Below, piece by piece: positions 17,197-63,239 of a stretch of DNA of 64,000 nt. Source of the DNA: Girardinichthys multiradiatus (Eukaryota > Chordata > Actinopteri > Cyprinodontiformes > Goodeidae). Each line of letters starts with the position of its first letter. Positions within the stretch are counted from its first letter, which is position 1. The notes under the pieces were generated by a model. The model was not told where the DNA came from. It made no database searches and saw only the letters and a list, made by a program, of their open reading frames with translations. The DNA is taken from contig NC_061795.1 in the NCBI RefSeq assembly GCF_021462225.1, forward strand, positions 47,855,880 through 47,919,879. The letters are read 5' to 3'. A program made the position numbers and the translations under genes.

Positions 17197-17642
17197 CTGT
17201 ATCTGAGGCGGCTACCTCCAAAATAAACTGTCTGGAAGAATCGGGATGAACTAGAATGGGTGTTTGAGAAAACCTCTCTTTTAGTGTCTGAAAGGCCTTG
17301 TCAGCTTCGGGTGTCCAGGAAAACACGATGTTTGTGGAGGTCAAGGCAGTGAGTGGTGTGGCGATTAAACTAAAGTTCATGATGAATCATTGATAAAAGT
17401 TTGCAAATCCAAGGAATTGTTGTAGCTGCTTGCGAGAGTCTGGAACAGGCCACTCCAGCACTGCCTTGATCTTCTCAGGATCCGAGCGAACCTGTCCACC
17501 CTCCAGGATGTAACCCAAAAATGTAATTGAAGTCTTGTGGAATTCACATTTCTCGGCCTTTACAAACAGTCTATTTCCAAAAGTCTTTGTAGAACTAGAC
17601 GGGTATGTTCTTTAATGTCTTTAGAGTAGATCAGGATGTCAT
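17102..17642 (-). pseudogene. Gypsy pol fragment: end of reverse transcriptase and start of RNase H
   Basis: Minus-strand translation gives [20 protein letters not shown], then [20 protein letters not shown] and [12 protein letters not shown], followed by [20 protein letters not shown] and [19 protein letters not shown]. This is the reverse transcriptase palm/thumb and connection region of Ty3/gypsy. There is a stop within it near 17390 and a frame change between about 17110 and 17190 before the RNase H frame. The catalytic YLDD motif is split by the LINE at 17643: YLD is on the far side of the insertion and DILIYS is on this side. Confidence 0.75.
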
Positions 17643-24145: not shown

Positions 24146-25755
24146 CAGGTCCTTCTCAAAATATTAGCATATTGTGATAAAGTTCATTATTTTCCATAAA
24201 GTCATGATGAAAATTTAACATTCATATATTTTAGATTCATTGCACACTAACTGAAATATTTCAGGTCTTTTATTGTCTTAATACGGATGATTTTGGCAAA
24301 CAGCTCATGAAAACCCAAAATTCCTATCTCACAAAATTAGCATATCATTAAAAGGGTCTCTAAACGAGCTATGAACCTAATCATCTGAATCAACAAGTTA
24401 AATCTAAACACCTGCAAAAGATTCCTGAGGCCTTTAAAACTCCCAGCCTGGTTCATCACTCAAAACCCCAATCATGGGTAAGACTGCCGACCTGACTGCT
24501 GTCCAGAAGGCCACTATTGACACCCTCAAGCAAGAGGGTAAGACACAGAAAGACATTTCTGAACGAATAGGCTGTTCCCAGAGTGCTGTATCAAGGCACC
24601 TCAGTGGGAAGTCTGTGGGAAGGAAAAAGTGTGGCAGAAAACGCTGCACAACGAGAAGAGGTGACCGGACCCTGAGGAAGATTGTGGAGAAGGGCCGATT
24701 CCAGACCTTGGGGGACCTGCGGAAGCAGTGGACTGAGTCTGGAGTAGAAACATCCAGAGCCACCGTGCACAGGCGTGTGCAGGAAATGGGCTACAGGTGC
24801 CGCATTCCCCAGGTCAAACCACTTTTGAACCAGAAACAGCAGCAGAAGCGCCTGACCTGGGCTACAGAGAAGCAGCACTGGACTGTTGCTCAGTGGTCCA
24901 AAGTACTTTTTTCGGATGAAAGCAAATTCTGCATGTCATTTGGAAATCAAGGTGCCAGAGTCTGGAGGAAGACTGGGGAGAAGGAAATGCCAAAATGCCA
25001 GAAGTCCAGTGTCAAGTACCCACAGTCAGTGATGGTCTGGGGTGCCGTGTCAGCTGCTGGTGTTGGTCCACTGTGTTTTATCAAGGGCAGGGTCAATGCA
25101 GCTAGCTATCAGGAGATTTTGGAGCACTTCATGCTTCTATCTGCTGAAAAGCTTTATGGAGATGAAGATTTCATTTTTCAGCACAACCTGGCACCTGCTC
25201 ACAGTGCCAAAACCACTGGTAAATGGTTTACTGACCATGGTATCACTGTGCTCAATTGGCCTGCCAACTCTCCTTACCTGAACCCCATAGAGAATCTGTG
25301 GGATATTGTGAAGAGAACGTTGAGAGACTCAAGACCCAACACTCTGGATGAGCTAAAGGCCGCTATCGAAGCATCCTGGGCCTCCATAAGACCTCAGCAG
25401 TGCCACAGGCCGATTGCCTCCATGCCACGCTGCATTGAAGCAGTCATTTCTGCAAAAGGATTCCCGACCAAGTATTGAGTGCATAACTGTACATGATTAT
25501 TTGAAGGTTGACGTTTTTTGTATTAAAAACACTTTTCTTTTATTGGTCGGATGAAATATGCTAATTTTGTGAGATAGGAATTTTGGGTTTTCATGAGCTG
25601 TATGCCAAAATCATCCATATTAAGACAATAAAAGACCTGAAATATTTCAGTTAGTGTGCAATGAATCTAAAATATATGAATGTTAAATTTTCATCATGAC
25701 ATTATGGAAAATAATGAACTTTATCACAATATGCTAATATTTTGAGAAGGACCTG
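24146..25755 (+). mobile_element. Full-length Tc1-like transposon, copy 1
   Basis: The element is 1610 bp. Terminal inverted repeats of about 210 bp begin caggtccttctcaaaatatt and end in the complement. The left flank is TA. The right flank is AA, a one-base decay of the TA target. Repeats of the outer motif inside each arm give the IR/DR layout of fish Tc1 elements. It carries one uninterrupted transposase frame. It is the same length and family as the copy at 38468-40077. Confidence 0.92.
24474..25478 (+). CDS. Tc1 transposase, open frame, catalytic Asp replaced
   Basis: The 334-residue frame encodes a cut-and-paste transposase acting on its own inverted repeats in the nucleus. Residues 8-55 form the first helix-turn-helix (KDISERIGCSQSAVSRHL). 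A second DNA-binding helical unit runs to about residue 115 (TSRATVHRRVQEMGYR). The DDE domain follows: Asp148 in VLFSDESKF, position 238 in FIFQHNLAPAHS, and Glu273 in LNPIENLW (34 residues between the last two, the DD34E spacing). Position 238 is Asn here, whereas the sister copy has Asp, and SPYLNP replaces SPDLNP. I count about nine residue differences from the sister copy. The frame is full length for the family, but loss of a metal-binding Asp should make it catalytically dead. It could still bind DNA. Confidence 0.9.
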   Translation: MGKTADLTAVQKATIDTLKQEGKTQKDISERIGCSQSAVSRHLSGKSVGRKKCGRKRCTTRRGDRTLRKIVEKGRFQTLGDLRKQWTESGVETSRATVHRRVQEMGYRCRIPQVKPLLNQKQQQKRLTWATEKQHWTVAQWSKVLFSDESKFCMSFGNQGARVWRKTGEKEMPKCQKSSVKYPQSVMVWGAVSAAGVGPLCFIKGRVNAASYQEILEHFMLLSAEKLYGDEDFIFQHNLAPAHSAKTTGKWFTDHGITVLNWPANSPYLNPIENLWDIVKRTLRDSRPNTLDELKAAIEASWASIRPQQCHRPIASMPRCIEAVISAKGFPTKY

Positions 25756-38467: not shown

Positions 38468-40077
38468 CAGGTCCTTCTCAAAATATTAGCATATTGTGAT
38501 AAAGTTCATTATTTTCCATAATGTAATGATGAAAATTTAACATTCATATATTTTAGATTCATTGCACACTAACTGAAATATTTCAGGTGTTTTATTGTCT
38601 TAATACGGATGATTTTGGCATACAGCTCATGAAAACCCAAAATTCCTATCTCACAAAATTAGCATATTTCATCCGACCAATAAAATAAAAGTGTTTTTAA
38701 TACAAAAAACGTCAACCTTCAAATAATCATGTACAGTTATGCACTCAATACTTGGTGGGGAATCCTTTGGCAGAAATGACTGCTTCAATGCGGCGTGGCA
38801 TGGAGGCAATCAGCCTGTGGCACTGCTGAGGTCTTATGGAGGCCCAGGATGCTTCAATAGCGGCCTTTAGCTCATCCAGAGTGTTGGGTCTTGAGTCTCT
38901 CAATGTTCTCTTCACAATATCCCACAGATTCTCTATGGGGTTCAGGTCAGGAGAGTTGGCAGGCCAATTGAGCACAGTGATACCATGGTCAGTAAACCAT
39001 TTACCAGTGGTTTTGGCACTGTGAGCAGGTGCCAGGTCGTGCTGAAAAATGAAATCTTCATCTCCATAAAGCTTTTCAGCAGATGGAAGCATGAAGTGCT
39101 CCAAAATATCCTGATAGCTAGCTGCATTGACCCTGCCCTTGATAAAACACAGTGGACCAACACCAGCAGCTGACACGGCACCCCAGACCATCACTGACTG
39201 TGGGTACTTGACACTGGACTTCTGGCATTTTGGCATTTCCTTCTCCCCAGTCTTCCTCCAGACTCTGGCACCTTGATTTCCGAATGACATGCAGAATTTG
39301 CTTTCATCCGAAAAAAGTACTTTGGACCACTGAGCAACAGTCCAGTGTTGCTTCTCTGTAGCCCAGGTCAGGCGCTTCTGCCGCTGTTTCTGGTTCAAAA
39401 GTGGCTTGACCTGGGGAATGCGGCACCTGTAGCCCATTTCCTGCACACGCCTGTGCACGGTGGCTCTGGATGTTTCTACTGCAGACTCAGTCCACTGCTT
39501 CCGCAGGTCCCCCAAGGTCTGGAATCGGCCCTTCTCCACAATCTTCCTCAGGGTCCGGTCACCTCTTCTCGTTGTGCAGCGTTTTCTGCCACACGTTTTC
39601 CTTCCCACAGACTTCCCACTGAGGTGCCTTGATACAGCACTCTGGGAACAGCCTATTCGTTCAGAAATGTCTTTCTGTGTCTTACCCTCTTGCTTGAGGG
39701 TGTCAATAGTGGCCTTCTGGACAGCAGTCAGGTCGGCAGTCTTACCCATGATTGGGGTTTTGAGTGATGAACCAGGCTGGGAGTTTTAAATGCCTCAGGA
39801 ATCTTTTGCAGGTGTTTAGAGTTAACTCGTTGATTCAGATGATTAGGTTCATAGCTCGTTTAGAGACCCTTTTAATGATATGCTAATTCTGTGAGATAGG
39901 AATTTTGGGTTTTCATGAGCTGTTTGCCAAAATCATCCGTATAAAGACAATAAAAGACCTGAAATATTTCAGTTAGTGTGCAATGAATCTAAAATATATG
40001 AATGTTACATTTTCATCATTACATTATGGAAAATAATGAACTTTATCACAATATGCTAATATTTTGAGAAGGACCTG
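38468..40077 (-). mobile_element. Full-length Tc1-like transposon, copy 2
   Basis: The element is 1610 bp, the same length as copy 1. Its inverted repeats are intact (caggtccttctcaaaatatt at both ends in opposite orientation) and a perfect TA duplication lies at 38466-38467 and 40078-40079. It is inserted a little upstream of the transposase start of the outer Tc1, facing the same way. Arms and gene show no obvious decay. Confidence 0.93.
38745..39749 (-). CDS. Tc1 transposase, apparently intact
   Basis: The 334-residue frame has the full Tc1 plan: two N-terminal helix-turn-helix units (residues about 8-115), then a DD34E domain. The catalytic positions are Asp148 (FSDESKF), Asp238 (FQHDLAPAHS) and Glu273 ([11 protein letters not shown]). 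All three are present and the spacing between the last two is 34. It would cut at the ends of this family and insert at TA. Versus copy 1 it differs at about nine residues, and at positions 238 and 268 it has the family-typical Asp. Judged only by frame, length, catalytic residues and intact terminal repeats, this copy could encode active enzyme. Promoter activity cannot be judged from sequence. Confidence 0.93.
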   Translation of the reverse strand: MGKTADLTAVQKATIDTLKQEGKTQKDISERIGCSQSAVSRHLSGKSVGRKTCGRKRCTTRRGDRTLRKIVEKGRFQTLGDLRKQWTESAVETSRATVHRRVQEMGYRCRIPQVKPLLNQKQRQKRLTWATEKQHWTVAQWSKVLFSDESKFCMSFGNQGARVWRKTGEKEMPKCQKSSVKYPQSVMVWGAVSAAGVGPLCFIKGRVNAASYQDILEHFMLPSAEKLYGDEDFIFQHDLAPAHSAKTTGKWFTDHGITVLNWPANSPDLNPIENLWDIVKRTLRDSRPNTLDELKAAIEASWASIRPQQCHRLIASMPRRIEAVISAKGFPTKY

Positions 40078-45370: not shown

Positions 45371-45850
45371 TTGTACATCCATAGACTGAAAGTTTACTTA
45401 AAGCATTTCATTGTATCTCTGGCTGCATGTTCAGGGTGGTTGTCCTGCTGGAAGTTGAACCTTCTCTCTGGTCTCAGGTCTTCTCTAGTCTCTGACAGGT
45501 TTTCTTTCAGGAATGTCCTTGATTTAGCTCCATTGATCCATCTTCCCATCAACTCTGACCAGCTGCCCTGTTCCCGATGAAGTAAAGGATCATCACAGCA
45601 TAATGCTGCCCCCACCATGTTTCACTGTGGGGATGGTGTGCTTAAGGCGATGTGCAGTGTTAGTTGACATCCACTTATAAAGTTCTACATGTCGGCCAAA
45701 AAGTTAGGTTTTCATCGGACTTGAGCATGTTCCTCTACATGTTTTCTAACCCTGCTGGATTTCTAATGGCTTCATCCTTCCCACTTTTATATCTGGTCCG
45801 ATATGGGGATTGGCAATACTACAGTCATGGTCAAAGGATTAGAATATTGA
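45371..45850 (-). pseudogene. Degraded Tc1-like transposase fragment
   Basis: The minus strand reads SELMGRWINGAKSRTFLKEN, LSETREDLRPERRFNF, then QQDNHPEHAARDTMK. This is the segment around the second catalytic Asp of a Tc1 transposase. The + strand words gctgcccccaccatgtttcac and actgtggggatggtgtgctt support the same. At its right end tacagtcatggtcaaagg resembles a Tc1 terminal repeat. Catalytic Glu and the N-terminus are missing. Confidence 0.65.
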
Positions 45851-45884
45851 TGATACATTAATTTATTTAACTCAGATCAGTAAG

Positions 45885-47125
45885 TGAAATACATCTGTCT
45901 CCCGCACCCCTCCCATATCTGCCCTGCTTCAGCTTTGTGTCTTGTCTTTTTTTTGGAGCCTCTTTTTGCACATCTTCCAAATTCTTCCAAAATATGGATT
46001 TGGTCAGCTGGTCTCTCAATGCAATTGATAAAATTTTCTCAACGAGAAGACAGGGATCGGGAGAGCCCACTTGCCCGGACGGGACATTTTTCTCTGGATA
46101 CACGATGGACTCCTGGCAGAAGTGGAGGATTGTGTGTCTGTTGATAATGTCAGTCGAAGATGTTGAAGATGTGTATAAAATTGGATGTTTGATATCAGGA
46201 TTTCTGCTTTTTGAAGTCAGCAGTTACCTGGCATATCGAGAAATTCGGAAAATGTCAGCAGCTGTTCTGGCCATTGTAAGGCTGCCTGGCATGTGTGATG
46301 GGATCTTCAGAGCGATCAACACTCAGACTGAGATGTTACGTGAGCTGAATCGCAGACTGGATGTGATCCTTACACAGGATCGCAGGCAGGTTGCGGTTCC
46401 TGGACTCAGGGGTGAAATGGGATAAATCTTGGAGAAAGTTGTTTGCTCGGATCTGGCAGAAAGACCAGGAATTTGGCTATTTGGATTTGCCTTTGAGAAG
46501 CACCAGTGAGACTCTCAAGGCTGATGGAAAATTAAGAGTCAGTCTACCCCAAATAATTATTGTTTTTCTGAATCTGGCTCCCCTGCGCGACCTTGATGGA
46601 TGGCTATCTTCAACTTCTCCTGGAAGTTATGTAAACATGACGCTCTGCTCTCTCTGCACCCTCCCTTCCCTGAGGACATCTGTGGACCTGCTCAGAACTT
46701 TGTGGCCAGTTGATGAACACTCCAACGTACCATCAAGGACAATGGCCTCTGTGACAGTGCTTCATGGACTTACTTGCACACACACACATGCTCAAGATAA
46801 ACATATGCACCCCCCTCACACCACCTTCACCGTTCCCGGCATGATGTTGTTTTGTCAACTGTTGCTTCTTTGTGCTGAGGTTTTTTGCAATCTCAAACTG
46901 AATCCTGCTAAGGATAAAGTGTGAAATATGATTTTTTTTCCCTCTACTTACCTAATGTGGCCTCTTTTCTCATCTAGCAAGGGCAGCGCCTGTGAGCGGG
47001 CAGCAAAGCCTCGGTGACCCGTCCCCCCATTGTCTTGTGTCATGATGTATGTTTGGATGGGTTGTACTGGAATTCTAATTTCCCCTCGGGGATCAATAAA
47101 GTATCTTTGAATTGAATTGAATTAT
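45885..47125 (+). mobile_element. Retroelement with small membrane-protein gene, copy A
   Basis: The first 1.05 kb or so (45885 to about 46960) is homologous along its length to 59368-60410. This includes a C/T-rich leader, the small coding frame, and a 3' region with gaatctggctcccc, tgctgaggttttttg and aaagtgtgaaatatgattt. It then continues into a LINE-like tail (tctaatttcccctcggggat, caataaagtatct, gaattgaattgaatt). The tail and lack of long terminal repeats suggest LINE-machinery mobilisation. The body matches no family I recognise. Confidence 0.55.
45994..46425 (+). CDS. Small single-pass membrane protein of unknown family, copy A
   Basis: Translation from MDLVSWSLNAIDKIF gives 143 residues; an internal MDSWQKW start at residue 38 gives 106. 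The frame stays open upstream to 45937 without an obviously better start, and I chose 45994 because the same ATG and codons occur at the corresponding place in copy B. Residues 62-81 form one hydrophobic segment (CLISGFLLF...YLAY) followed by basic residues. Residues about 108-131 (NTQTEMLRELNRRLDVILTQ) form a polar, heptad-like helix. By hand about two-thirds of the MDSW...GLRG region is identical to copy B. No enzymatic motif is visible. Possible readings are a LINE accessory ORF, a captured host fragment or a membrane-active peptide; none is established. Confidence 0.55.
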   Translation: MDLVSWSLNAIDKIFSTRRQGSGEPTCPDGTFFSGYTMDSWQKWRIVCLLIMSVEDVEDVYKIGCLISGFLLFEVSSYLAYREIRKMSAAVLAIVRLPGMCDGIFRAINTQTEMLRELNRRLDVILTQDRRQVAVPGLRGEMG

Positions 47126-47202
47126 ATAGATTCATTACACACAGACTGATGTTTCAATGCCTTTATTTATGTCAAGTATCATGATTGACAGAAATAAAAG
47201 AG

Positions 47203-47771
47203 AGATCATATTTCTCCTATTTTAGCTTCCCTTCATTGGCTCCCTGTTAAATCCAGAATAGAATTTAAAATTCTCCTCCTCACATATAAAGCCCTTAATG
47301 ATCTAGCTCCATCATACATCAGAGATCTGATTGGTCCATATGTTCCTAACAGAGCACTTTGTTCTCAGACTGCAGGTCTACTGGTGGTTCCTAGAAGTAG
47401 AATGGGAGGAAGATCCTTTAGTTATCAGCTCCTCTCCGGTGGAACCAGCTCCCAGCTTTAGTCCGTGAGGCAGACACCCTGTCTACTTTTAAGGCTAGGC
47501 TTAAAACTTTCCTTTTTGATAAAGCTTATAGTTAGAGTGGCTTAGGTTATCCTGAGCTATCTGTGTAGTTATGCTGCTATAGACTTAGGCTGCTGGAGGA
47601 CATAATGACCACTTTCACCCTCTTCGCTACATTCTCACACTACTCTCCAATTTTGCATTATTTGCTGTTATTTCAGCTTTTAACTTCATGTTATCTCTCT
47701 TTTCTCTTCCTAGAAGCTACACCTGGCCTGACTCTGTGTCTACCTGTGACACCTCCCTAGACGGGGGCATC
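47203..47771 (+). mobile_element. L2-like LINE fragment, C-terminal domain and part of 3' UTR
   Basis: The segment repeats the C-terminal coding and 3' UTR of the LINE at 17643-19994, for example ttcattggctccctgttaaat, gatctagctccatcatacat and gcttatagttagagtggctta. A small deletion near 47390 and base changes break the frame. It ends within the 3' UTR near gacgggggcatcg, so it is truncated at both ends. Confidence 0.75.
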
Positions 47772-50110
47772 GTTATTTTCAAAAGGTACTTTTATAAGCC
47801 TTATCGAACTGCTGATTCCAATTTACTGAATGTGTCATAGTTGTCTCTTTGACAGATTCCCCCACTTGAGTACTGGAGAAACTCCAGAGTCACCATAGGC
47901 CTTTTGGTTGCTGCTCTGAGCAATGCTTTTCTTGCCTGTCAGTTTAGGTGAACTCCATGTCCTGGTAGATCTGCAGTTGTAAAGTGAAAAAATGTAAGAA
48001 AGGAGAAGGTTTTTTACAAGGCACTATATGTAGGAAGGTATGAGCTCACTGCAGCTGCCATGTGAAAGTTAGACCCTGCAAGCTGCTTGTTATTCCAAGT
48101 GACTCCAGGTAACTGGCCAAGGATCAGAAATGCTTTCAGATTAGAGAAAGACAGAGAGATGAGCACACTTGGAAAGCAAACAGCGTTCAGCCTATTTGAA
48201 GACTGAATCCACTTTTCTTTCAGCAAGTGGGTTTTACACTTGGGGCTTTAAGTTGTAGGTTTACTTTCCTCTCTTGACAAATAATCAAAGCCTGGATGAC
48301 TTTAAAGAGTTACAAAGACATATAGAAAAAGGAGCTCATGGCTTCAGCAGCATTTTTAGAGCAGAAATAAATAAAATATTATTAAACAAAGAAATCTAGA
48401 GAGAGCCTACACAGAACACATCCACCTTGCCAGTGGCAAGTTCGTTAAATATGCCGAAAAGGGTTTCATTTAACAGAAAGATGCTGCAAGCTTTTCCTTT
48501 CATGTCATGCAGAAGCTCAAGAGAAATAGAACCCTCCAACTTTCACATTTTGACCCAAATTTTAAAATGCTGAGATTAAACCCAGCAGCTAAAAGTGCAG
48601 CAAAACACTGAGGGCAAATTCAAGACTAAAGCTGAAAGAAAGTAGCCAGCCCACAGCTTTTTTTCCCTCATGAGAGACTTCACCCACAGAAATGCTTGGA
48701 TGGTTTTAAGAGGCTTCTGTAGTTTTTAACTTTAATTAAACTGACAGAATTAGCAATTAGAGGCCTGAGTGGCCGACTCACCAAGGAGCAGCAATTTGAG
48801 AGCTCAGATAAGATGTAACTGCAGGCTAAATTTGTTTGAATCACATATGTGAGGCTTACACTGGGAGATCAGTCGGAGTGTGTTCATATAAATCTGGGTG
48901 GACTGAGCGGTGATCTTAATCATCATAAACCAACAACGTTTTGTGAGAATATGACTTGCTGTGAAGGGACTTTTTGCACAGGGATGCTGTAAGAGAAAAC
49001 TCATGAAGTCTGTTATGAGATGATGTGTACTTTGGGATAAGATCTGATTTTGCTCTGCAGTAAGTCTCAGTAACATTGTTGGCCTGTGCAGAGTGAATAA
49101 TGAGTTTCCACCAGTCCATATAAGACTGCACATCACATTAGGGGCATCACTGTCCCATTGGAGAGACACCATAATGTGAGTTATTACTGTGGACAATTGG
49201 ACACTACTACATATGAAACAGTTTACTGCTTTACTCTTCAACACTTTGTGTTTACTCCTTCTCGACTGAGGCAAACAAATACAGATTCACATACAGATCC
49301 TTTAAGATTCTAATGATAAAGATTTCCACTTTGCCTTCTGAAACATCAAAAACATAATTTTAATCCTATCAGTTTTCTGATCTAAGAACCTAACAATAAC
49401 CTAAGACAACTTTAAAACAATTTGTATACATCTATATTGATGTAGAAGCTAATTTTCCCAAAATCCCAGTGTAGAAGCAGCAGGAGTAAACAAAAAAACA
49501 AAAAAATTAAAAAAACATTCCATATTACAGCTCCATAAAATACATATGACTGTTCCAAGTTGATACACAAATGCACAGAAAAACATGATTAACACCGTCC
49601 ATTATTTTCTAAAATAAAATTTGTATGCTCATTTTCTAATGTTGCTAATAAAATACATATCTTGCTTTTATGAGCATATATAATAATTGTTAAAACATTT
49701 GCTGTTCAGTTGCGTTCAGGCTTGTGTCTCAAGTTGCATTAATGTCAATGACCAAAATCAAGAAAATGAAAAAAGTGTTAAAGGAAATAAAATGCACAAG
49801 GCAAAGTGAGAACACAGCCAAAAGTTTCCAAATAGGGTTAATGTTATGTTTGAAACATTGGATTTACTAGTGAAATGTTCAAAAGCAGTTATAGCAAGGT
49901 CTGCAGCTTGAGTTAGGTGAGAAGGAGGAAGTCATGTGAAATGTTTTCTGAGAGCTTTATTGGCCAAGACTGGGTTCCTACTTTCAGAAAAAAACCCATA
50001 AATAAAGGCCACTAGTGCTGCAGAACAACAAACATTTTCTGGTTTAAACTGCATAATGTCAATACTTTCCATCAATAAATAGATGATATATATGAATTTC
50101 AATCTACCAC
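47772..50110. other. Intergenic sequence, no gene recognised
   Basis: AT-rich non-coding DNA. A 156-residue minus-strand open frame at 48804-49274 has no recognisable domain, splice context or homologue in the window and is treated as chance. Confidence 0.45.
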
Positions 50111-50217
<107 letters not shown>

Positions 50218-51596
50218 TAGTTTGTTCACGAATACGATACAGGAAATTAAATTGTGTTTTTTCTAACTGTCACATCTTCTTTTGTGTTTTAGGTTCCAGT
50301 AAGATTTTCTGTTTTATCCAAACATTTAAAGTCTATGTAGGTATGTCTTGTTTCAGCCCATAATGGAACGTGTCAGTGTTTGACAGATTTGTGAAGACTT
50401 AAATGTTACAAGAAGAAATTTTTCTGGCTTTCTTCATTTTGAGTATAAATACCAGCTAAAACAACCAAAATAAATCCATTTCCACTGCCAGTTTTAATGT
50501 GTCTAATTTTGTGCACTCCCAGAACCTTCGTTATGTCCAGCAACTAGCACAAGTCTTCCTTAATACACAGCCTGGCCTAAAAATAAAATTGCCACCTGGA
50601 TTTAACTAAGCATATAGGTACGAGCCTCCCATTGGATAATTACTGCATGGGTGATTATGTTTCAGCTGGCAACAAGTTATTTAACCCCAACTGGTGCAAT
50701 AAGTTGCTTCTCATTTCTTAAACAACCATGTTGAAAGAAACATCCTGTGGTCGTGGAAAAGATGTCAAGCTGTTTCAGAAGGGTCAAATCATTGGCATGC
50801 ATCAAGCAGAGAAAACATCTAAGGAGATTGCAGAAACTACCAAAATTGAGTTAAGAACTGTCCAACGCATTATTAAAAACTGCAAGGACAGTGGGGATCC
50901 ATCGTTTTCAAAAAAGAAATGTGGCTGGAGAAAAATCCTGAATGATCGTGATCGCCATTAACTTAAAGGTTTGGTGAAATCAAATCGAAGAAAATAAAAC
51001 AGTAGAACTCTGGGCTAATAGTGAAAGTAAGAGCATTTCCACACACACAATGCAAAGGGAACTCAAGGGATTGGGACTGAACAGCTGTGTAGTCTTAAGA
51101 AAACCACTAATCAGTGAGGCTAACTGGAAAAATGGCTTTAATTTGCTAGGGAGCATAAAGATTGGATTCTGGAGCAATGAAAGAAGGTCATATGGTCTGA
51201 TGAGTCCAGATTGACCCTGTTCCAGAGTGATGGGAGCATCAGGGTAAGAAGAGAGGCAGGTGAAGTGATGCCCCCATCATGCCTAGTGCCCACTGTACAA
51301 GCCTGTAGGGTCAGTGCTATGATCTGGGGTTGCTGCAGGTGGTCAGGTCTGGGTTGAGCAACAGTACGTGTTCAAAGGATGAGGTCAGCTGACTACCTGA
51401 ATATACTGAATGACCAGGTTATTCCATCAATGGATTTTTACTTCCCTGAAGGCACGGGCATATTCCAAGATGACAATGCCAGGATACATCGGGCTCCAAT
51501 TGTGAAAGAGTGGTTCAGGGACCATGAGACATCATTCTCACACAAGGATTGGCCACCAGAGTCCAGACCTTAACCCCATTGAGAATTCAGTTTCAA

Positions 51597-53137
51597 TTCA
51601 ATTCAATTCAGTTTTTTTATATAGCGCCAATTTACAACACATGTCGTCTCAAGGCACTTCACAAAGTCAGGTTCATACATTCCAATTAATCCTAACATTG
51701 AACAGTTCAGTCAGATTCAGTTATTTATTCAAATTGGATAAAAAGTTTTTCTATCCAAGGAAACCCAGCAGATTGCATCGATTCAGTGACTTGCAGCATT
51801 CATTCCTGTTGGACCACTTGTTTGCTGAATATTAGACCATTTGCACGTTGCTGGATGCTACCAGGCCTTCTGGCGTTTTTGGCCATTTTGTATCCCAGGA
51901 CAGTCTGTTACTACAAATCCCAGCGGCCACTGCGGCTGATAGGACGGGGGTGTCGCAGCTCTGGGGCCACAGTCCACTATATAACAGAGTATGAGACGGC
52001 CCACCATTTGCTTTTCACGCTGGAAACCGGACCAGCAACTGAAGCGCATCATTCTGGAGAAGAGCAACTCAACACTCCTCCTGGATGTTGTATGTTGAAC
52101 AGTCACTGGCGTTGACTTTGCAGCAATCCCTCATACTGAGCATGCATGTAGCGACAGTGGAGAGGAAAAACTCCCTTTTAACAGGAAGAAACCAGCAGAA
52201 CCAGAACCAGGCTCAGTGTGAGCGGCCATCTGCCACAACTGACTGGGGGTTTGAGAGAACAGAGCAGAGACAGAAAAAGAACACAGAAGCACTGATCCAG
52301 GAATACTTTATATGGGAAGGAAAAGTAAATATTAATGGATGTAGCTCCTTTAGTCGTTTCACCTAGAAAGAAAGAACAGATAAACTCTGAGCCAGTTTTC
52401 AAGGTTAGAGTCTGAAAGAGAGCACATAGAGTTAGTTACAGTAAAGCTCGGTCAGTAGCCATGTCTAGGAGAGAGAAAGGGTTAAACACTAAAAGACAGG
52501 GCTATGTGGATCATCGGTAGAGGGTGAGCATTAAGTTGTTGCCAGCAGAAGCTTGGACGATGCCCCTCTCCAGAAAGGTGTCATAGGTAGAGACAGAGCC
52601 AGGCCAGGTGTAGCCTCTAGGGAGAGAAAAGAGAGAGAACAAAGTTAAAAGCTGAAATACCAGCAAATAATGCAAAATTGGAGAACAGTGTGAGAATGTA
52701 GCGAAGAGAGTGAAAGTGGTCATTATGTCCTCCAGCAGCCTAAGCCTATAGCAGCATAACTACACAGATAGCTCAGGATAACCTAAGCCACTCTAACTAT
52801 AAGCTTTATCAAAAAGGAAAGTTTTAAGCCTAGCCTTAAAAGTAGACAGGGTGTCTGCCTCACGGACTAAAACTGGGAGCTGGTTCCACAGGAGAGGAGC
52901 CTGATAACTAAAGGATCTTCCTCCCATTCTACTTCTAGAGACTCTAGGAACCACCAGTAAACCTGCAGTCTGAGAACAAAGTGCTCTGTTAGGAACATAT
53001 GGACCAATCAGATCTCTGATGTATGATGGAGCTAGATCATTAAGGGCTTTATATGTGAGGAGGAGAATTTTAAATTCTATTCTGGATTTAACAGGGAGCC
53101 AATGAAGGGAAGCTAAAATAGGAGAAATATGATCTCT
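51597..53137 (-). mobile_element. L2-like LINE, antisense, inserted in a Tc1 gene
   Basis: Minus-strand reading gives the C-terminal codons (about 53137-52790) and the 3' UTR shared with the LINE at 17643. The tail is ggcgctatataaaaaaactg followed by gaattgaattgaa. It is 5'-truncated. The target was within gagaat/ctttggg of the transposase gene, with at most a couple of duplicated bases. A further 280-bp insertion lies in its 3' UTR. Confidence 0.78.
51813..52094. other. Extra segment of about 282 bp inside the L2 3' UTR
   Basis: Compared with the other L2 copies (19740-19790 and 57730-57770), this copy has foreign sequence between gcattcattcctgttgga and cagtcactggc. It is more GC-rich than the LINE and contains actatataac, a TATA-like word. 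It has no recognised repeat ends, coding domain or tail. Origin unknown. Confidence 0.5.
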
Positions 53138-53369
53138 CTTTGGGATGTGCTGGAGAAGGCTTTGTGCAGCGGTCAGACTCTACCATAATCAATTCAAGAT
53201 CTTGGTGAAAAATGAATGCAACAATGGCTGGAAATAAATCTTGTGACATTGCAGAAGCTTATTGAAACAATGCCACAGTGCATGCGTACCGTAATCAAAG
53301 CTAAACCAAATATTAGAGTGCGTGACCTTTTGTTTCTGGTGGTGACTTTTGTTTTCGGCCAGGTAGTGC

Positions 53370-56300
53370 ATGATTCTCCAGGTGTTCCCTTCACATCGGA
53401 AGATGGATTTTGGAATGTCAATATACACAACCTAACCTTGTTGAGGTTTATTAACAGATCTGTTGAGTGACCATGGTAGCTACTACTAGAAATAAAATCC
53501 CATAGTAACAAAATATGTATCTACATGTTTGTATGTGTATTTAAATACTAAAGAAATGTGTTTGCTAACAGCAAATTGTGTGCTACTGATTTAACCAGAT
53601 CTCGTAGAAACCAACAGAGGTTCAAACAAAACATGGGTTTAACAGTTTTATCACCTCACCTTTAAAATCGCCTTTTCAAACATAATCTAATTTTACAACA
53701 TTTGGTAAAGTTGTCCTCTTGTAAGGAAATAAATCTGCACAGTAAGAAATGAAGTTTGTGTTTCCTTCAACATTGGTAATAAATATTAAATACATGTATA
53801 AATGCAAGTTCTCTTTTTACATTTAATAAGGACTATAGATGTGGTCATATTAGAGTAATTTCCTCCTCAAAATCATTTTTATTAACATTTTTGTTGTACA
53901 TTAATTGTTTACATTGTACATTAAATCCTATTTTGATAATACATAATTCTTGTCAACTCTAAAGGTAAACATAAACTACTTGAATACATTTTAATGGACT
54001 GTAATTTAAAAATATGTAAATATAGTCAGCTGGTATAAGAGTCTAGATGCTAACTGAAATTAGATTAAAAGTTAGTAATTAATTTTAATTTTAGTTTTAT
54101 TCCATTTTTCAGTTTGAAGTTAAAGTGGTAGCCCTGTGGTGCCCAAGTCTAGTCCTCCAGATGCTCTATCCTGCTGCTTTTCTAACAGACAAGAATAGCT
54201 TATTACCAGACCTCTGCAGAGCTGAAGAGGAAATTCAGCCATTTGATGCATCTAAATGTTGCAGGATGGAAACTCTGGACGACTGGACTTGGGCGCCCTA
54301 GTTGTTGATCATATGAAGGAAATTTAGATGTAAAATTGGGCTTAATGGCAGATTTAGGAAGTGAATAGGAGACATAGGTTTGATTGTTTCTTGGTTGCAG
54401 CACATGCACACTCCTGCCAGAGATAATACAGAAAAAAATAACCCTAACCCTGCAAAACTGTAAGATTAAAATAATAGTTTAATAGGTAATTTTACCCTAA
54501 TCAGACAGAGATTATTCCCAGGGTTTTTCTTTGATAGCATTTCATAGTTGAGGATCTTACACACATTGGAAAATTACAAAAATTTACCAAACTTTCCAGG
54601 ATGCTGACTGGAAGAAAATGGTTTCACTGTTTCAGGAAAAATGCAGCATGGAGTAAATAAAAAACCTGGTCAGATATTGTATTGCATCCGTCAAATAATT
54701 TGTAAATACATTTTTAATCAAGCTTAAAGTAAACATACTTTTCAGTATGTTGAGCCTTAGAACTATGATTGTGTCCACCATTCAGGGCTGTTTGTAGCTC
54801 ACAGTAGTACAAATCAGAGATGAACCAGAACAGTGTGCATGTGTGGGATCCTCTGACAAAACTGAACTTACAAGTTAAATATCATGTAAAACAAAAATAC
54901 TGCTGCTGCTCTTAAGGGCAGGTACTATGTTATGAACAGAAAGTGCCCTATTCCAGCGATGAGAAGCAGACACATGTTCTATGTCTAAAGCTCGGTGCAC
55001 ACATTAAGCACTCTGTTTCAATATAATTACTGGGGACTAACTATCTGTACTGTACATCAGACCAACCAGGATTCTTGTCAGATCCTGCAAACTCAGCATT
55101 TTGTGCTCCCACAGGAAACTTTGTCCTTGGCTGTCCTTAGTTTTGTCTGCTCGGTTCCAACTCTCTGTCCCTTTACTGCTTTACATTTTGGCCTTTTCTG
55201 TATGTATATCCCATTATTCTGCTCCTCCTACAGATTTTTCTTTCCGTGCCGTACTTCATCATGCAGACAGTTTTACTACCTTTATAGAAAGTAATGAAAC
55301 CTATGGTGACTGACAAACTGATTGTGTCCCTGTTAATTTCTAAATTTAAACTCAGACAAATTTGTCTAATACAAATCTTTGACAAAGGACATTTGTAAAT
55401 CTCCTGTTTGTGGAAACCTTGGTAAACAAAGCAAAGGTGTTGAACCATCTGGCCTGAGGAGATGTAGCTGGAGGATTTTGGAGACCTTGTAGCAGAGGTT
55501 GCCCATGAGTGTTCCCGTATGTCCTTAAAGTAAAGAGCTTTTCAACACAAGGCCACTAACACTGGTAAATCAATTACTGACACATTACAAAGAATATGAC
55601 CAGAAACAACTAAATAAAAATCTGAGAGACAATAAAAATATTTAAAACTATTAAAAGGTTTGAGCAAACCTTCTTAAATTCTAACAGCGTATTTCTCTTC
55701 TATTTATATTCACCGAAGCACAGGAAAAATAAACATCATGAAATAATAATTCACAGGAATAACATATTCACAGTTATTGGTTGAATAAACAAACACTGGT
55801 TGGATACAGTATAAACCTGAGGCGGTGGACTGAATGCATTGCCTGGTTTTGGTTCAAAATGTGTTGGTGTTAAATTTTCTCCCCATGACAATGATATATT
55901 TCTGCTTGTTAATCTTCATAAGTTAGTTAGGAAATTGATATAAAAAAATAGTTTCTACCTGAACTCGCCCTGAAATCTACATTCAGTGAAATATTTACAA
56001 GGTTGGATGAGAACCAGCTGTCCACCACTCATAACCAGCAGTAAGGATTATATAGGTGGCACCTTCCTAATTACCTAGTGTGTCTAACAGAGAGGAACCT
56101 GCATATGAAGACATACAAGGTACACCATGCTTATCTAATGCTCTAACACCCACCAAAAACCTTTAACAAGCAAACGAAATGCTCCAGAGCAGGTCTGCCA
56201 AGCAGTCATCAACATCCTGTGTGGGAGGAGACCAGCTCCACCCACACAGGTAAGTTTCCTACTGGATAGAGTCCTCAATCTAGGTTAGTCCTTTCAAATT

Positions 56301-56879
56301 CTCCCCCATCCAATCAGAGCTAGCATTCCCCAGCTGGCATTCTGTGTACCAAAGGACAAACAGAAGAGAAAGAAAACAGAAACACACAATCTGCAAGACC
56401 TGTAACAGTAAACATGCCAGAAAAAACAAAAACCTTTCTGTCTTACGAATGTAAATGTGTTGAGCTACCTTTAACTGTAACCATGACAAGACTAAAACTG
56501 CGTTCTACAGGAACTAAGATTCCAGGTTGATCTGCTGTAAAGTAAGGTGAAAGACCTATGATGCTGTGCTTGTGTTTCTCTTTTAGAGTTCACGGCATAA
56601 AATACCAGACTTTTTTAAAGACAATTCTGGTGGCCTCTACCAGAGAACTACATTTTTCAACATTGAGGAGAGCTGAAGAGGAGACAGTGTAAGCGAGGAC
56701 CGAGGAATCGGGAGCTTTAAGAGCTTTAAGAGAAATCGTATAAAGCAGCATGGTCAAAAGAAATCTCTCTCTGTGCCTTATGTCTTAGAACAAGAACACT
56801 ATGGTGCATTGCAGAAATATATTAAGTAGAAGAAAAAGCATATCAATGCAGTAAAAATCTGAAAATCTGTCATATATTT
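53370..56879. other. Intergenic sequence with one dispersed-repeat fragment
   Basis: At about 54121-54310 there is a block ending in tgttgcaggatggaaactctg and gacgactggacttgggcgccc that reads like a common fish dispersed repeat, but I cannot name its class. The rest is AT-rich DNA in which no gene, RNA or repeat termini were recognised. Confidence 0.4.
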
Positions 56880-57480
56880 GTGTTCAGACCCCATTCCCCT
56901 AAAAATATTCTAGTGCACCCATGTCTCCTACTGAGTCCACCAAGGAACACAGCAGACAGGTCAGCGAGAAAGATGTGGAGAAGTTTAAAGCAGGATTAGG
57001 TTCTAAAACATTGCACCAAGCTTTGAACATCTCCCAGAGCTCTGTTCAATACATCCTCTGAACATGGCAAAAGGATGGACCAACTGCAGACCTACCATGA
57101 CATGAACGTCCACCTAAACTGACAGGCTGAGCAAAGAGAGCAGTAATCAGAGAAGCAGCCAAGAGACCTATTGTTAGTCTGGAGGTGTACAGGGACCCAC
57201 AACTCAGGTGAGAGGATCTGTGGAAAAACAGCAATGAGTTATTTACTCCACTAAAAAGGCTTCTTTTGTATAAAAAAAAGTGGCTACAAGAAAGCCATAA
57301 GATGTCTTGTTTACAATGTGAATACACTATAACCAAGGTTACATATGGTGATGGCAGCATCATGCTGCGAAGATGCGTATCCCCGGCAGGAACAGGGAAG
57401 TGATCCTGGAAGAAAACCTTTTAAAGGCTAGGTTAGAATGGCATAGTCAAAGTCCAGATCTAAATCCAACTGAGAAGGTG
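56880..57480 (+). pseudogene. Degraded Tc1-like transposase gene
   Basis: The + strand DNA retains transposase wording: gagaaagatgtggagaag then tttaaagcaggattaggtt (helix-turn-helix), aaactgacaggctgagcaaag, gagaagcagccaagagacc, and later tcaaagtccagatctaaat (SPDLNP). Stops and indels interrupt every frame. It is cut off at 57482, where an L2 tail begins. Confidence 0.65.
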
Positions 57481-57482
57481 TG

Positions 57483-57919
57483 GTAATGTGTTCTCCTTTT
57501 ACAGATGACACTGTCTTTCAGTGTTTAACCCTTCTACAATTAATATTTTACTTGTCTTTCCCATGGAAAGTATTGTTATATCAGTGCTTCTGTGTTCCTT
57601 TTGTGTGTCTGCTCTGTTCTCTCAAACCCCCAGTGGATCATGGCAAATGGCCGATCACACTGAGCCTGGTTCTGGTTTTGCTGGAAGTTTCTTCCTGTTA
57701 AAGGGGAGTTTTCCTCTCCACTGTCCTCGCTACATGGTCATTCAGGAGGAGTGAATGCTGCAAGTCACTGACTCGATGCAATCTGCTGGGTTTCCTTAGA
57801 CAGAAAAACTTGGAATGTATGTACCTAACTTGAAATCTGTATGAATTGACTTTTTAAAGTGCTGTGAGACAACGTGTGTTGTGAATTGGCCTATATAAAT
57901 AAACTGAACTGAATTGATT
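57483..57919 (+). mobile_element. L2-like LINE 3' end fragment
   Basis: It carries the 3' UTR of the same L2-like family: ggccgatcacactgagcctgg, tcactgactcgatgcaatctg, tttccttagacagaaaaac and the tail ggcctatataaataaactg. A small internal deletion distinguishes it from the copy at 19800-19994. It is followed immediately by a SINE. Confidence 0.75.
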
Positions 57920-58276
57920 GGGCTGCACGGTGGTGCAGTTGGTAGCACTGTTGCCTTGCAGCAAGAAGGTCCTGGGATCGACTCCTGGCCAGGGGTCTTT
58001 CTGCATGGAATTTGCATGTTCTCCCCGTGTATGTGTGGGTTTTATCCGGGTACTCTGGCTCCCTTCCACAGTCCTGTTAGGTAAATTGGTCTCTCTAAAT
58101 TGCCCTTAGGTATGAATGAGTGTGTGCACAGTTGTTTGTGTGTAACCCTGCGATGGACTGACGACCTGTCCAGGGTGTACCCCGCCTCCTGCCCATAGAT
58201 TGCTGGAGATAGGCACCAGCTTCCCTGCGACCCACTATGGAAGAAGCGGTATACAAAATGATGAAATGACTGATTG
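57920..58276 (+). mobile_element. tRNA-derived SINE
   Basis: The head ggctgcacggtggtgcagtt contains an A-box-like ggtggtgcagttgg, and a B-box-like gggatcgactcc lies about 40 bp on. The body has tgcatgttctccccgtgta, gcgatggactgacgacctgtc and caccagcttccctgcgaccc. The tail has atgatgaaatgactgattgaa. This is a full-length teleost SINE inserted directly at the end of the L2 tail. Confidence 0.82.
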
Positions 58277-58308
58277 AATTGTAAGATGTGAAAATTGTTG
58301 TTTACAAG

Positions 58309-59096
58309 TGTTGGGGCCATCCATTTGGTCGCACATTTTGACGCACGCAGCTCAACAGACGTCGCAGCTCTGACGTCACTGGAAGTATAAATCGGCTGAG
58401 ATGCATAGTCTCGGGGCCATTTCCGCTTGTCGCAGGACAGCGTATAGGAGGCGCATTTCTGGTGAGACAAAGCTCGCAGGCGAACGTTTGCTCCACAAGG
58501 CCATTCCCAGAAGAGCTTGAAAGCTGGAAATCTGTCTGATACGAGAAGATCAGAGGATTTATTTGCTTATCGAAGACCACGCCACGACCGGCGCAGGTAA
58601 AAAACCTACAGAGGTTCTATGTCCAAGGAGATGAGTTTCCTCCTTGGGTATGCAGTCGACTAACGGTTCTTCATCTTTTCCCCTCGTGGACGGATGAGAA
58701 GTTACTGTTTTTTTTTCTTAATTTGATCACGGACGCGTGGGCATATACCAGAATAATGGTATATCAGAATTATTCGGCTTCAATAAATCTTCATATATAT
58801 AATTAAGAGAAGCATTTGTGTTTATTTCGTGCAAGACTGATTTATCTGTCAAAACAAAGTCGAAGTTCCCCCACCTTTGGTGAAGTGATTGAATAAACAG
58901 TGACAGTTTGTGGTTTTGGTTAATAATTTGTAATTATTAAAGAGCTTTGAGCCCATAATCACAACACCAGAGGATATCTCTGATTTATATTCGTAAGTGA
59001 TGATCTTTGGTTAAGAAATTAATATTTTTCAAATTATTATTTTAAATTATGATTCTTGATGAATATTAATTGATCAATAATCATATATTCCTTACA
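58309..59096 (+). mobile_element. Solo LTR, 788 bp, TSD CAAG
   Basis: The segment begins TGTTGGGGCCATCC and ends ATTCCTTACA, with CAAG repeated at 58305-58308 and 59097-59100. A CpG-containing promoter-like part with gtataaatcggctgag (about 58386) is followed by ttcaataaatcttc (polyadenylation signal, about 58779) and a long AT-rich 3' part. The 4-bp duplication and long R-U5 suggest a retrovirus-like element. No internal genes are attached. Confidence 0.75.
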
Positions 59097-59125
59097 CAAG
59101 CGTACTTCATCCAATCTAACTTAGT

Positions 59126-59235
59126 GTGAATGTTTTTGCAAAGAAGAATGGTCAAAGACTCCAGATTTACAAAACTGGTAGAGACATACCCCAAAATGTT
59201 TCCAGCTTTCACTGTAGTAAAAATTATCATGGAAT
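59126..59235 (+). mobile_element. Tc1-like non-coding remnant
   Basis: The words acaaaactggtagagacatac followed by cccaaaatg, and fainter flanks, match the reverse complement of 37480-37550 in the outer Tc1 (cttggggtatgtttctatcag). Only about 100 bp can be followed. Confidence 0.45.
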
Positions 59236-59367
59236 TAAAAACCATCTACATTTTTCTTACATTTTCTCCATCTTGCACTGTTTTCTGTGTGACTGGTGTG
59301 GTTGTCCATTGCATACTTGAGACATGCTGGCCAACATGAATGCACTGAGTCTTAATCTCGCTCTCGG

Positions 59368-60985
59368 TGGAAGACATACGTGTTTCTCTCACTCCCTCCC
59401 TGCTGATCCCTGCTTCTGCTTTTTGTCTGTATTTTTCTCAGAGCCTCGCTTTGCATATGCTCCAAACTTGTAAATTATGGATTTGGTCAGCTGGTCTCTC
59501 AACGTAACTGATCAAATTTTTTCGACGGGAAGACAGGGTAAAGGAGACCCTCTTGTCCAGACGGGACGTTCTTCTCACAATGGATTCTTGGCAGCAGTGG
59601 AAGATTGTGTGCTTGACTACAATGTCGGTGGAGGACATAGAAAATGTGTACATATTTGGACTTTTGATAACAGGATTTCTGCTTTTTGGAGTTGGTGGTT
59701 ACCTGGCTTATCGAGTGATTCGCAAAACGTGGCCAGCTGTTCAAAGTGTTCAAAAGCTTCCTGTGATGTTCGATGGAGCCTGCAGAGCGATCAGCACTCA
59801 GACTGAAATGTTAAGAGAGCAGAATCGCAAGGTGGACACGATTCTTGAACAGAATCGCAACCTGGCAGCGGTTGGACTCAGAGGTTAAAGGATATAATCT
59901 TAGAGAAGTTGTACGCTCGAGATCTGCAGAAAGTACCAGAAATTTGGCTATTTGGATTGGCAATTGAGACATATCAGTAAAACTCTTAAGGTAGTTGGAA
60001 ATTCACAACTGCCTGAACCACAACATTTATTGTTTTTCTAAATCTGGCGCCCCAATGTGGCCTTGGCAACTTCTGCTAACTAGCTATCGACAAAATATCT
60101 TCTGGATGTTATATGAACACGACGGTCTTCCCCAGCACTCCCTTACCAGCTGTGTGCTGATAGGACTACTGATAAAACTTCCACCTCTCTTCTCAAGGAC
60201 AATTGCGCTTCTATCAGTATTGACACATAATTCTTGCAAACACATTCAGACTTATATATATTCACACCCTCAAGATTCCACCGTACCCTTGCTAAATCTT
60301 TACTTATGTGTGTGTTGATTACCCCTGCTGAGGTTTTTTGTACTATTTCAGACTCTATTCTGCTAAGAATAAAGTCTGAAATATGATTTTATTTCCCTCC
60401 TATCTTACTTTACCTAAATGTGTGATTTCATTACTTTTCTTGGATTTTCAGATTTATCAGGATTACCAGCAAAAGCCAAATATTATTAGCATTTGAAAAT
60501 TTGACTACAGCTGTTTTTACACCAATGACCATAGATTTTTAAATTTCTTAGAAGGATTGTATTACAAATATTTCATACCAGTGAAAGCCAAACATTATTA
60601 GTATTTAAAAAGTTTGGACCTACCAGTGACCCAGCTTCTCTACTTCAGTGAGTGCCCATGGCTGTTACTATGTGAATGATGGGACCACAGTTGCCTCATA
60701 CCAGCGACCTCAAGGATTGATATTATCATTTTTCTTCTAGCACAGAATGAATTCCTTACCACAGAGGACTTAATGAGCTAACTACCTCTATTAGAAAGAT
60801 TGGATTAGAGCCAGCTCTTACCACTAAACTCCCAAGGATTATTAATGTCATTTGAGTTGTTTTTCTGTGTTTGATTTTCTGTATCATTGTAAAGTTTTAC
60901 CTCATGTACAGCACTTTGAGTGCCTTGTTGCTGAGAAGCGTTATATAAATAAACTTGACTTGACTTGACCTGACTTGACTCGAGT
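59368..60985 (+). mobile_element. Retroelement with small membrane-protein gene, copy B
   Basis: It shares about 1.05 kb with copy A (C/T-rich leader, coding frame, and a 3' region ending aaagtctgaaatatgatttta). It then diverges into its own 0.55-kb 3' part. This ends tgtacagcactttgagtgcct, gcgttatataaataaactt and a ttgac repeat, a LINE-type tail different from that of copy A. No long terminal repeats or inverted ends were found. Confidence 0.55.
59580..59888 (+). CDS. Small single-pass membrane protein of unknown family, copy B
   Basis: From MDSWQQWKIV the frame gives 102 residues. Residues about 24-44 are a hydrophobic segment rich in glycine (IFGLLITGFLLFGVGGYLAY) followed by RVIRK. Residues 68-93 are a polar heptad-like helix (ISTQTEMLREQNRKVDTILE). 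The stop follows GLRG as in copy A. An upstream ATG at 59477 (MDLVSWSLNVTDQIFSTGRQ) corresponds to the longer start of copy A. Here about 8 bp are missing between the two starts, so the extension is out of frame. Membrane segment, helix and C-terminus are preserved in both copies. Function unknown. Confidence 0.55.
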   Translation: MDSWQQWKIVCLTTMSVEDIENVYIFGLLITGFLLFGVGGYLAYRVIRKTWPAVQSVQKLPVMFDGACRAISTQTEMLREQNRKVDTILEQNRNLAAVGLRG

Positions 60986-63239
60986 GACTTTCTTACAAAT
61001 TAGCTAATAACTATTGACACTCCATTGCTACCTTCATCCTTTCGGCAGATGGTATGAAGAGACTTCAGCTGAGAGCATCTTCTTTACATCAGGCAGGAGC
61101 TGCTCCAAATTATTTGGATGTTTACTTCTTTCTGAATGAATCTTTAATTACAGCCGGATGCCTCGGCAAACATAAGCAGCATTTAATGGAGTGGAGATGA
61201 GGCCCTGCAGCTCCTCAAATTCACACAGTGAGTGAGCAAGCATGTGTGATTACATAGTGCAACAGTCCGGGACAGTTAAACACGAACTCCTACCGACTCA
61301 AACAGTGCATCTCTACTTGAGTGTGAAGGTGTTGGTGTGATGTTACAGACTCAGCAATCTGTTTCAAAGGTCGTCTTCCTTCCACCGGTTTCCAGGGAGC
61401 AGCAGACCTGCAGCTACAGTGGCCTCTATTATAGAAAAGGTTCTGCAGAGAGAAATCTGTCAAAAATATTTTTTATTCATTTGGACAACTCTTGAATGGT
61501 GCTCTCACATAAAGTAAAATGTAAAACACAGCAACATCAACGTAACTAAATGTAACAGACAGGTGTAGTGTTCTGTGTTGTCGTTCCTTTTAAGTATTTT
61601 ATGGATTAGGAATGTTGCTGAGCTCAACAAATCATTAATAGATGGCTTTACAAAAGCTTAATCTCTGCCAGTTTCATTTAAAACAGGCGCTGAAGACTCC
61701 ACATGAGGACTTTACAGCAGAGGAACAGCTACAATCAGGTGAAAGATGAAACGTTTCATGTCAGAGGATCCAAGTGATCAAAACTAACTCAGAAATTCAG
61801 CTGTATGCCAAAGAGGTTAAAGTTTTTGAGAGCATATTTCTCTAAGATTTACACACTTTTAGTTTTGGCATACAGTTTGTTTGAAAAGTAATCATACCCC
61901 TTAAACTTTGCAACCTCAAACTCCATGATGTTTTTCTGTGGCCAGAATCAAAGTAGTGCATAATTGTGAAACTGAAGTAAAAAGATACACAGTTTTCAAA
62001 CATTTTTGTCAGCGTCTGCTCGGAGAGTTATTTAGCGCATATAAGAATGAGCTGCAAAACTGTGGCAAGCCTTCAGGGTACATGTGTCATCTGCTGTTTA
62101 CCAAAGATATATTGTCATTTGTTCATTTTAATCTGTTTAAGTTTAGTTTTACTCGATGGGTAATCCTTCACATATCAGTAGTGCTAATCTGGAGCTCGTA
62201 GCTGGCTGCTGTTATTTCCACATCAGTAAAGCAACACACTATATCAGAGTGTGTGGAGTTTGTTGAGGGTTGTATGTTTAAGATGTGTGTTATTATTTGA
62301 TTAAAGACCCTTTTGGATTAAAAAAGATATTAAAATCATCTACTCGGTTCATCTCTGAATCAACCAAGGCAGCTGTAGGTTCAGGTATGTGAAGATTTGT
62401 ATAGTTTCATATATTTGTGATTCATCACAATACGCAAAGTTCCATTAGTCAAAAAGTACATTAACAGTAAAATTAATATCTACAGATATCACTGCAGTCT
62501 GACTAGAATAAGACTAAAATCGTTTCACCTGAACCTACAAACAACATGTGAACACATGAAGCCTGCAAACACAGAAAGTATGCAAACAGCAGCCAATGAT
62601 TGTTCAGTTATGTTTGTCTATTCTGTATCATATTTGATCACAAAAAACATTCCATTTAGCTATTACACTTTGCATATCAATTTACCAGAAACCTAGTGAG
62701 TTGTGAAAGTATTGATTAGCTACTGTCTGAAATAAATGGACCATGAAGACAGCAGTGCAGGAAGCAGAATATAATTTACATGGTGGCTAAAAATACTTAA
62801 CATTTGCAGATGGCATTCATTGTTCTGTTTTAAATGTCCAATTAAGAAAAAGGTTCTGTCCCATTGGTTTATCCCTGTGCCATTGATCACTTGCACTGAA
62901 GGTTAATATTAAGAACTATAAGGTAATCTGATCAACTACAACATTCTCCTCACTGCAGCTAAGATGTCTGAACATGACTGCTAGCAGCCTCTCAACTCCT
63001 GAAAGCATCTGCTAACTCTGTGATCGGTGGTCCCTACAGCAGACAGAACTTGTCATAAACACTGTGCTGCATGCAAAGCCCTCTATTTTTAAGTCCACTC
63101 TGGAGAAAAAGAGGGGTTCCGATGCTGTAAAAAAAGCCCCAAATTAATATGAAGGTTGAGGTCTAAGATAAGTGGATCTAAACTTGTGACTAGAACAGAA
63201 CTTATGGCCCTTTTCCATTAGGACCTACTCAGCATAACT
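60986..63239. other. Intergenic sequence with a Tc1 terminal-repeat remnant
   Basis: At about 61870-62000, gtttgaaaagtaatcatacccctt and nearby words look like a decayed Tc1 inverted repeat. The rest is AT-rich non-coding DNA without recognisable genes. Short open frames, including 61938-62201, have no domain support. Confidence 0.4.

Follow-up and report, generated by a model that had tools for sequence, protein, structure and literature searches.

A teleost retroposon that probably depends on LINEs and carries a selected gene for a predicted membrane protein

Passenger retroposons are a known kind of mobile element, and the non-autonomous passengers of long interspersed nuclear elements (LINEs) are normally non-coding, as are short interspersed nuclear elements (SINEs), or hold the relic of a LINE gene, as does half-L1 (HAL1). 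SINEs with LINE-derived tails, such as those of eel and of zebrafish (L2), combine non-autonomy with a fixed 5' start, 5' truncation, a LINE-type tail and a microsatellite end. Zebrafish L2 LINE proteins recognise 3' tails, according to experiments described in PMC4176376, and PMC5753468 describes mammalian HAL1 as non-autonomous and encoding a single protein, L1 ORF1p. Here we describe two copies of an element, A and B, in a 64,000-nucleotide stretch of contig NC_061795.1 of the goodeid fish Girardinichthys multiradiatus (the window), which we consider very probably to be a retroposon that relies on LINEs and has a membrane-protein gene under selection. The element shares all the listed properties of the tailed SINEs, but it is longer, has no small-RNA-gene head that we could find, and carries a conserved protein gene. 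It resembles HAL1 in being non-autonomous and encoding one protein; unlike L1 ORF1p, that protein has no match among the family models tried and is a predicted membrane-spanning protein, and, unlike that of HAL1, the element body occurs with LINE tails of two kinds. Its 3' ends and tail repeats are like those of teleost L2/Rex1-type LINEs, A's tail being putatively Rex1-like, but the unit lacks the endonuclease and reverse transcriptase of such LINEs.

Both elements lie on the forward strand. Element A spans 45894..47123, a 5' truncation of about 36 nt relative to the full-length 5' end, and element B, which represents a second subfamily, spans 59350..60985 and by DNA alignment has A's body with another tail. 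The common body of about 1.05 kb occupies 45894-46962 in A and 59350-60428 in B, in agreement with the homologous blocks of the original prediction, which was made from the letters of the window; its main block covers 665 bp (E = 6e-125), and homology is lost after 46962/60428. A's gene (45994..46425; open frame list and tblastn) is intact, with 143 codons and a stop, and matches a database relative, P0050, at 92% over 143 residues. It is followed by the 3' untranslated part of the common body (46426..46962), homologous to 59889-60428 in B. B keeps a leftover frame of 102 codons and a stop (59580..59888), which begins at the equivalent of Met38 of the full protein because the N-terminal coding stretch (59477..59566; tblastn and alignment) is out of frame with the remainder. 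Both frames had been located correctly at the outset, and the expected two-thirds identity over about 102 residues compares with 64.7% measured across 102 aligned codons. The gene itself had been taken as 102 residues long, whereas the full gene has 143 codons and its N-terminal 37 residues are conserved as far as cyprinids; a common frame end at GLRG was right for B but not for A, which ends three residues further at GLRGEMG. The gene's N-terminal quarter, the LINE tails and the difference between the tails of A and B were absent from that prediction. On our reading, A and B are copies from two subfamilies of one teleost-wide retroposon of about 1.25-1.65 kb.

The host genome searched comprises 1.15 Gb and yielded, depending on the search, 3,238-3,734 candidates, counted as loose first-look matches. 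With the protein of A as query the number of loose candidates was 3,238, and the 150 best were scored, of which 146 have no internal stop. Twenty A-type loci (L009-L028), fetched from these 150 as 9.9-kb stretches, all align to the unit and reach 47122-47124 in A numbering at their 3' ends. A single 5' end, preceded by unrelated DNA, is common to 11 of the 20, a variant of it occurs in a twelfth (L025), and the remaining loci start later. In eight of the 11 loci this end reads CTTTT(T)CCTG ahead of a TCTCGG motif, and full-length copies of both subfamilies (L009-L028; L069, L074) mostly have a C and a pyrimidine run before GCTCTCGGTGG, a start resembling the 5' terminal oligopyrimidine (TOP) start of ribosomal-protein mRNAs. 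An 18-bp target-site duplication flanks the copy at L019, one of 17 loci that were examinable for this. The overall pattern is the signature of LINE target-primed reverse transcription, with the element as passenger, and, together with the thousands of loose candidates, it bears out the proposed mobility.

The proposed non-autonomy likewise holds: in the 11 full-length A-type copies only 1156-1260 nt separate the 5' CTCGG motif and the tail, so there is no room for a reverse transcriptase, and no endonuclease or reverse transcriptase frame was found in the unit among the copies fetched. The absence of reverse transcriptase was thus correctly predicted, but not that of recognisable ends, since the elements carry LINE-type microsatellite tails that differ between A and B. 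A polymerase III small-RNA-gene head was not found, with no Rfam match at the gathering score in the window and no tRNA in 45500-61200, although a decayed head would escape both searches. A DNA transposon or miniature inverted-repeat transposable element was rejected, as the inverted repeats are internal in both elements and none is terminal; the microsatellite 3' end and the 5' truncation also disfavour it. Several copies of the element occur in parallel on host contigs C24 and C25 with equal scores, as if these were haplotypes or sex chromosomes.

The two subfamilies differ in what follows the body. At the 3' end of A-type copies stands TTTCCCCTCGGGGATCAATAAAGTATCT, or a sequence close to it, with TTGAA-like repeats behind it, and all 20 loci align through this tail, which in A is TTTCCCCTCGGGGATCAATAAAGTATCT(TTGAA)n (46963..47123; 3'-end alignments). 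Tail B (60429..60985) ends in the L2-type GCGTTATATAAATAAAC(TTGAC)n. Among the 12 B-type loci fetched (L068-L079), eight have the L2-type end GCGCTATATAAATAAAC or close variants with repeats and none has tail A; alignment is lost ahead of the tail in the other four. At L078 the body switches at 60374, inside a hairpin near the body end, straight into about 38 nt of L2-type end; either direct joining or deletion might explain this. A third-subfamily copy with an open full-length frame (L085) likewise matches tail B. The 3' part of tail B shares 71% identity across 96 bp with the 3' untranslated region (UTR) of a LINE in L014, whose reverse transcriptase fragment matches RVT_1 (E = 6e-11), and tail B also resembles two L2-type ends in the window, at 19968 and 57892; one of these folds well (z -3.36) and the other does not (z -0.31). 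Tail A is putatively Rex1-like. A tail-only match at L015 was rejected as the LINE owning tail A, as its sequence looks like that of an older, truncated element copy. As a separate observation, the window holds L2/CR1-type LINE fragments at 17599-18258, 47198-47461 and 52793-53179, one of them directly downstream of element A, which we take to be endonuclease and C-terminal parts.

The protein has many relatives. Database searches returned 82, 184 and 350 proteins (E <= 10, 1 and 1; best 120 listed for the latter two), and the named sources among the matches listed are all fish, namely goodeids, Poecilia formosa, Boreogadus saida, Leuciscus, Labeo, Cirrhinus and Prochilodus, with further relatives on metagenome or genome contigs. 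The 143-residue form is present in goodeids and Leuciscus and conserves an MDL.SWSLNAID.IFST-like start, GEP.CPDG, a W-rich MDSW region, SVED.ED and a glycine-rich hydrophobic segment. A tree of 57 protein sequences, which leaves 19 of its 54 inner branches open, places otophysan, gadid and cyprinodontiform members roughly by host and shows several goodeid subfamilies; at the level of sequence this fits vertical descent of the protein lineage since early teleost evolution.

Helices are predicted at residues 2-20, 35-53 and 98-133, with a transmembrane helix within 57-95. The first, moderately amphipathic (45997..46053), coincides with the conserved MDL.SWSLNAID.IFST start; the putative transmembrane segment lies at about residues 60-82 by hydropathy and charge count (46171..46239); and the polar C-terminal helix (46285..46392), which is conserved, is coiled-coil-like by the model. 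One main hydrophobic segment and a TQTEMLRE helix are kept in both copies, in line with the original prediction (alignment and hydropathy). Kyte-Doolittle maxima over 19 residues, themselves a prediction, are 2.02 for B and 1.92 and 2.41 for two relatives. Charges around the predicted segment are acidic on the N side and basic on the C side, a pattern that would place the N-terminus in the lumen and the C-terminus in the cytosol. Neither Pfam nor NCBIfam gave a match above cut-off, PDB sequences gave none for the B frame, and a search of PDB folds with the weak model gave one match (E 6.6) and none at E <= 0.001. A virus-derived gene was rejected: a BFVD fold search gave 13 matches at E <= 10 and none at E <= 0.001, a weak test because the structure model is weak, and viral contigs (IMG/VR) gave one pattern match with no relative confirmed. 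Public records of the frame (P0006, P0054, P0083, P0109, P0124 and P0184) carry unrelated automatic names from UniRef or NCBI: envelope stress protein, ABC transmembrane, reticulon-like, copper transporter, dynamin and helicase-like.

The strongest alternative takes the gene for the ORF1 of a LINE that is autonomous and as yet unseen, and A and B for ORF1-only internal-deletion derivatives of it, as HAL1 is of L1; we judge this unlikely. The gene's first place in the element, its coiled-coil-like C-terminus and the LINE-type tails all fit such an origin, and HAL1 supplies the precedent (PMC5753468). One and the same body, its 3' UTR included, is nevertheless joined to two different LINE-type tails, the 11 full-length A-type copies leave no room for a reverse transcriptase, and the protein has no Pfam match above cut-off. 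Nor was a reverse transcriptase frame noticed in about 1.4 kb past the gene in four third-subfamily stretches, the LINE piece at L084 aside; the absence of reverse transcriptase here refers to the copies fetched. That LINE piece is presumably endonuclease-like, and other coding sequence lies upstream of this part. Joining of the body to the L084 LINE frame was rejected, and the LINE is taken as a neighbour or an insertion, because it lies apart from the element in L020, L022 and L028.

Selection on the protein, as opposed to passive carriage of a frame, is indicated by the ratio of nonsynonymous to synonymous substitution rates (dN/dS). Between A and B this is 0.37 (NG86, bootstrap 0.19-0.64) or 0.45 (maximum likelihood), and a comparison of subfamily majority codons, drawn from 38 A-type and 13 B-type copies, gives 0.31-0.40 (bootstrap 0.18-0.60 by NG86). 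The B-type copies in this comparison were picked by protein score and without stops, and the A-type copies by UTR similarity with the frame disregarded: a DNA search of the host's own genome with 46426-46960 gave 40 scored places, 93-100% identical, and the 38 remain once the copy in the window itself and one member of a C24/C25 pair are excluded. Together with the conservation of the frame in distant teleosts, these ratios uphold the original proposal of selection; neither neutral dN/dS nor a match to a LINE ORF1 or a host gene, the outcomes named beforehand as speaking against it, was found.

An improbable alternative is that the element is passive, its frame an accidental relic that is conserved merely because the copies are young. 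In most of the 38 UTR-selected A-type copies the frame is indeed broken or incomplete, in some of them through mutations held in common: 31 reach the frame start, a 1-nt insertion at frame nt 77 is common to 14, and a 4-nt deletion at frame nt 379 to 11. B's N-terminal lesion likewise recurs in nine of the 12 B-type loci (L068 has another lesion, L071 is cut short in this region and L079 is undamaged), and over half of the 150 B-type places scored have a 117-codon stop-to-stop frame, as that lesion would give; 103 of the 150 lack an internal stop. Open 102-codon frames in the fetched B-type loci were not counted, because these loci had been chosen from rows without stops. Passive carriage is nonetheless opposed by conservation of the 143-codon frame across goodeids, polar cod and cyprinids, and by the upper bootstrap limit of 0.60 on dN/dS between the subfamilies. 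Within A, singleton changes look neutral (omega-like 1.2-1.4), and those common to at least three copies give lower values (0.4-0.8), though not significantly so. The least probable explanation, a host membrane-protein gene repeatedly retroposed as processed pseudogenes, would account for intronless single-gene copies with a TOP-like 5' end and a pyrimidine-rich 5' UTR, but is very unlikely given the thousands of loose first-look candidates, LINE microsatellite tails rather than poly(A), subfamilies marked by common diagnostic indels and by different tails, and many distinct relatives per species with no family match; no search aimed at a single-copy parent gene was made.

What is directly in evidence is a unit with one gene, a common pyrimidine-rich 5' start, 5' truncation, a microsatellite 3' tail, one body joined to two different LINE-type tails, and long-term purifying selection. 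The full account that we favour, and think probable, is of a passenger retroposon that uses LINEs through its tail and encodes a membrane helper protein. Element RNA would be made by polymerase II from an internal promoter with a TOP-like start, and translated into the 143-residue membrane protein, with the N-terminal helix and CPDG loop presumably luminal and the coiled coil facing the cytosol by the charge rule. LINE proteins recognising the 3' tail would then copy the RNA into new sites, the serving LINE being set by whichever tail a lineage carries. The membrane protein may be an accessory factor that gathers element RNA, or its ribosomes, with LINE proteins at the membrane, and it might act in trans for frame-broken sublineages. 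We put forward this membrane-adaptor role only tentatively.

Several observations weigh against the favoured account. A target-site duplication is convincing in just one of 17 examinable loci, the other 16 having 3-7 bp at best, and the tail position was not located in three of the 20. No LINE owning tail A was found, with no dedicated genome search behind that result, and shuffled sequences fold as well as the final 53-61 nt of the tails (z 0.54 for A and 0.41 for B). The hydrophobic maximum of A is marginal at 1.53, and the structure model is weak (pLDDT 72, pTM 0.26). Changes in exactly two A copies show no clear trend (0.4-1.8), and the test of shared against singleton changes within A leans to selection without being significant (p 0.08-0.46). 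Although dN/dS is below one, as was anticipated, frames are not intact across copies: surely intact frames number four among the 38 A-type copies (the script called five, with L042 aligned only to nt 180). The few intact copies and the common frameshifts imply that the protein is not needed in cis, and because frame-broken sublineages multiplied too, it probably works in trans or is dispensable in the short term. The simplest account is that selection has kept the gene over the long term and that broken copies are complemented in trans.

We found no description of the element in the literature searched, which did not cover Repbase, Dfam and most subscription journals, so an entry there is possible. 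What appears to be new here is a passenger retroposon with a conserved membrane-protein gene matching no known family. It is conceivable, if speculative, that a selfish lineage has persisted since early teleosts by means of a private membrane-anchored helper and exchangeable LINE tails, recruiting any LINE machinery that suits the tail of the moment, with broken sublineages parasitising the helper. If so, LINE passengers can evolve helper proteins of their own, and the element would offer a direct route to test what a passenger needs in the cell for copying. The element also accounts for a number of fish protein entries under misleading automatic names, which are products of a mobile element.

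The hairpin near the end of the body has a GCTA loop and beats shuffles in both copies, in A at 46891..46926 (z -2.31) and in B at 60344..60383 (z -6.11), where the 18-nt arms are 94% complementary. Pairing holds at 10-13 of 16 positions in the 20 A-type loci. The hairpin was scorable in five of the 12 B-type loci: L069 pairs at 15/16 positions, L071 at 16/16 and L078 at 9/9 before its junction, and L070 and L076 pair at just 10/16 in the register used, probably through a small deletion. The third pair is C-G in nearly all A-type loci and T-A in the scored B-type loci, with both sides changed. This hints at a structured RNA, for which one compensated pair is little evidence.

Among the other features of the window are two nearly identical, fully open frames of 346 codons (24438-25478 on the forward strand and 38745-39785 on the reverse), which we take to be Tc1-type transposase. 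An open frame of 513 codons on the reverse strand (15670-17211) presumably represents the RNase H and integrase of a Gypsy-type long terminal repeat retrotransposon. Between elements A and B, a perfect AAAG tandem repeat of 26.5 copies occupies 50112-50217.

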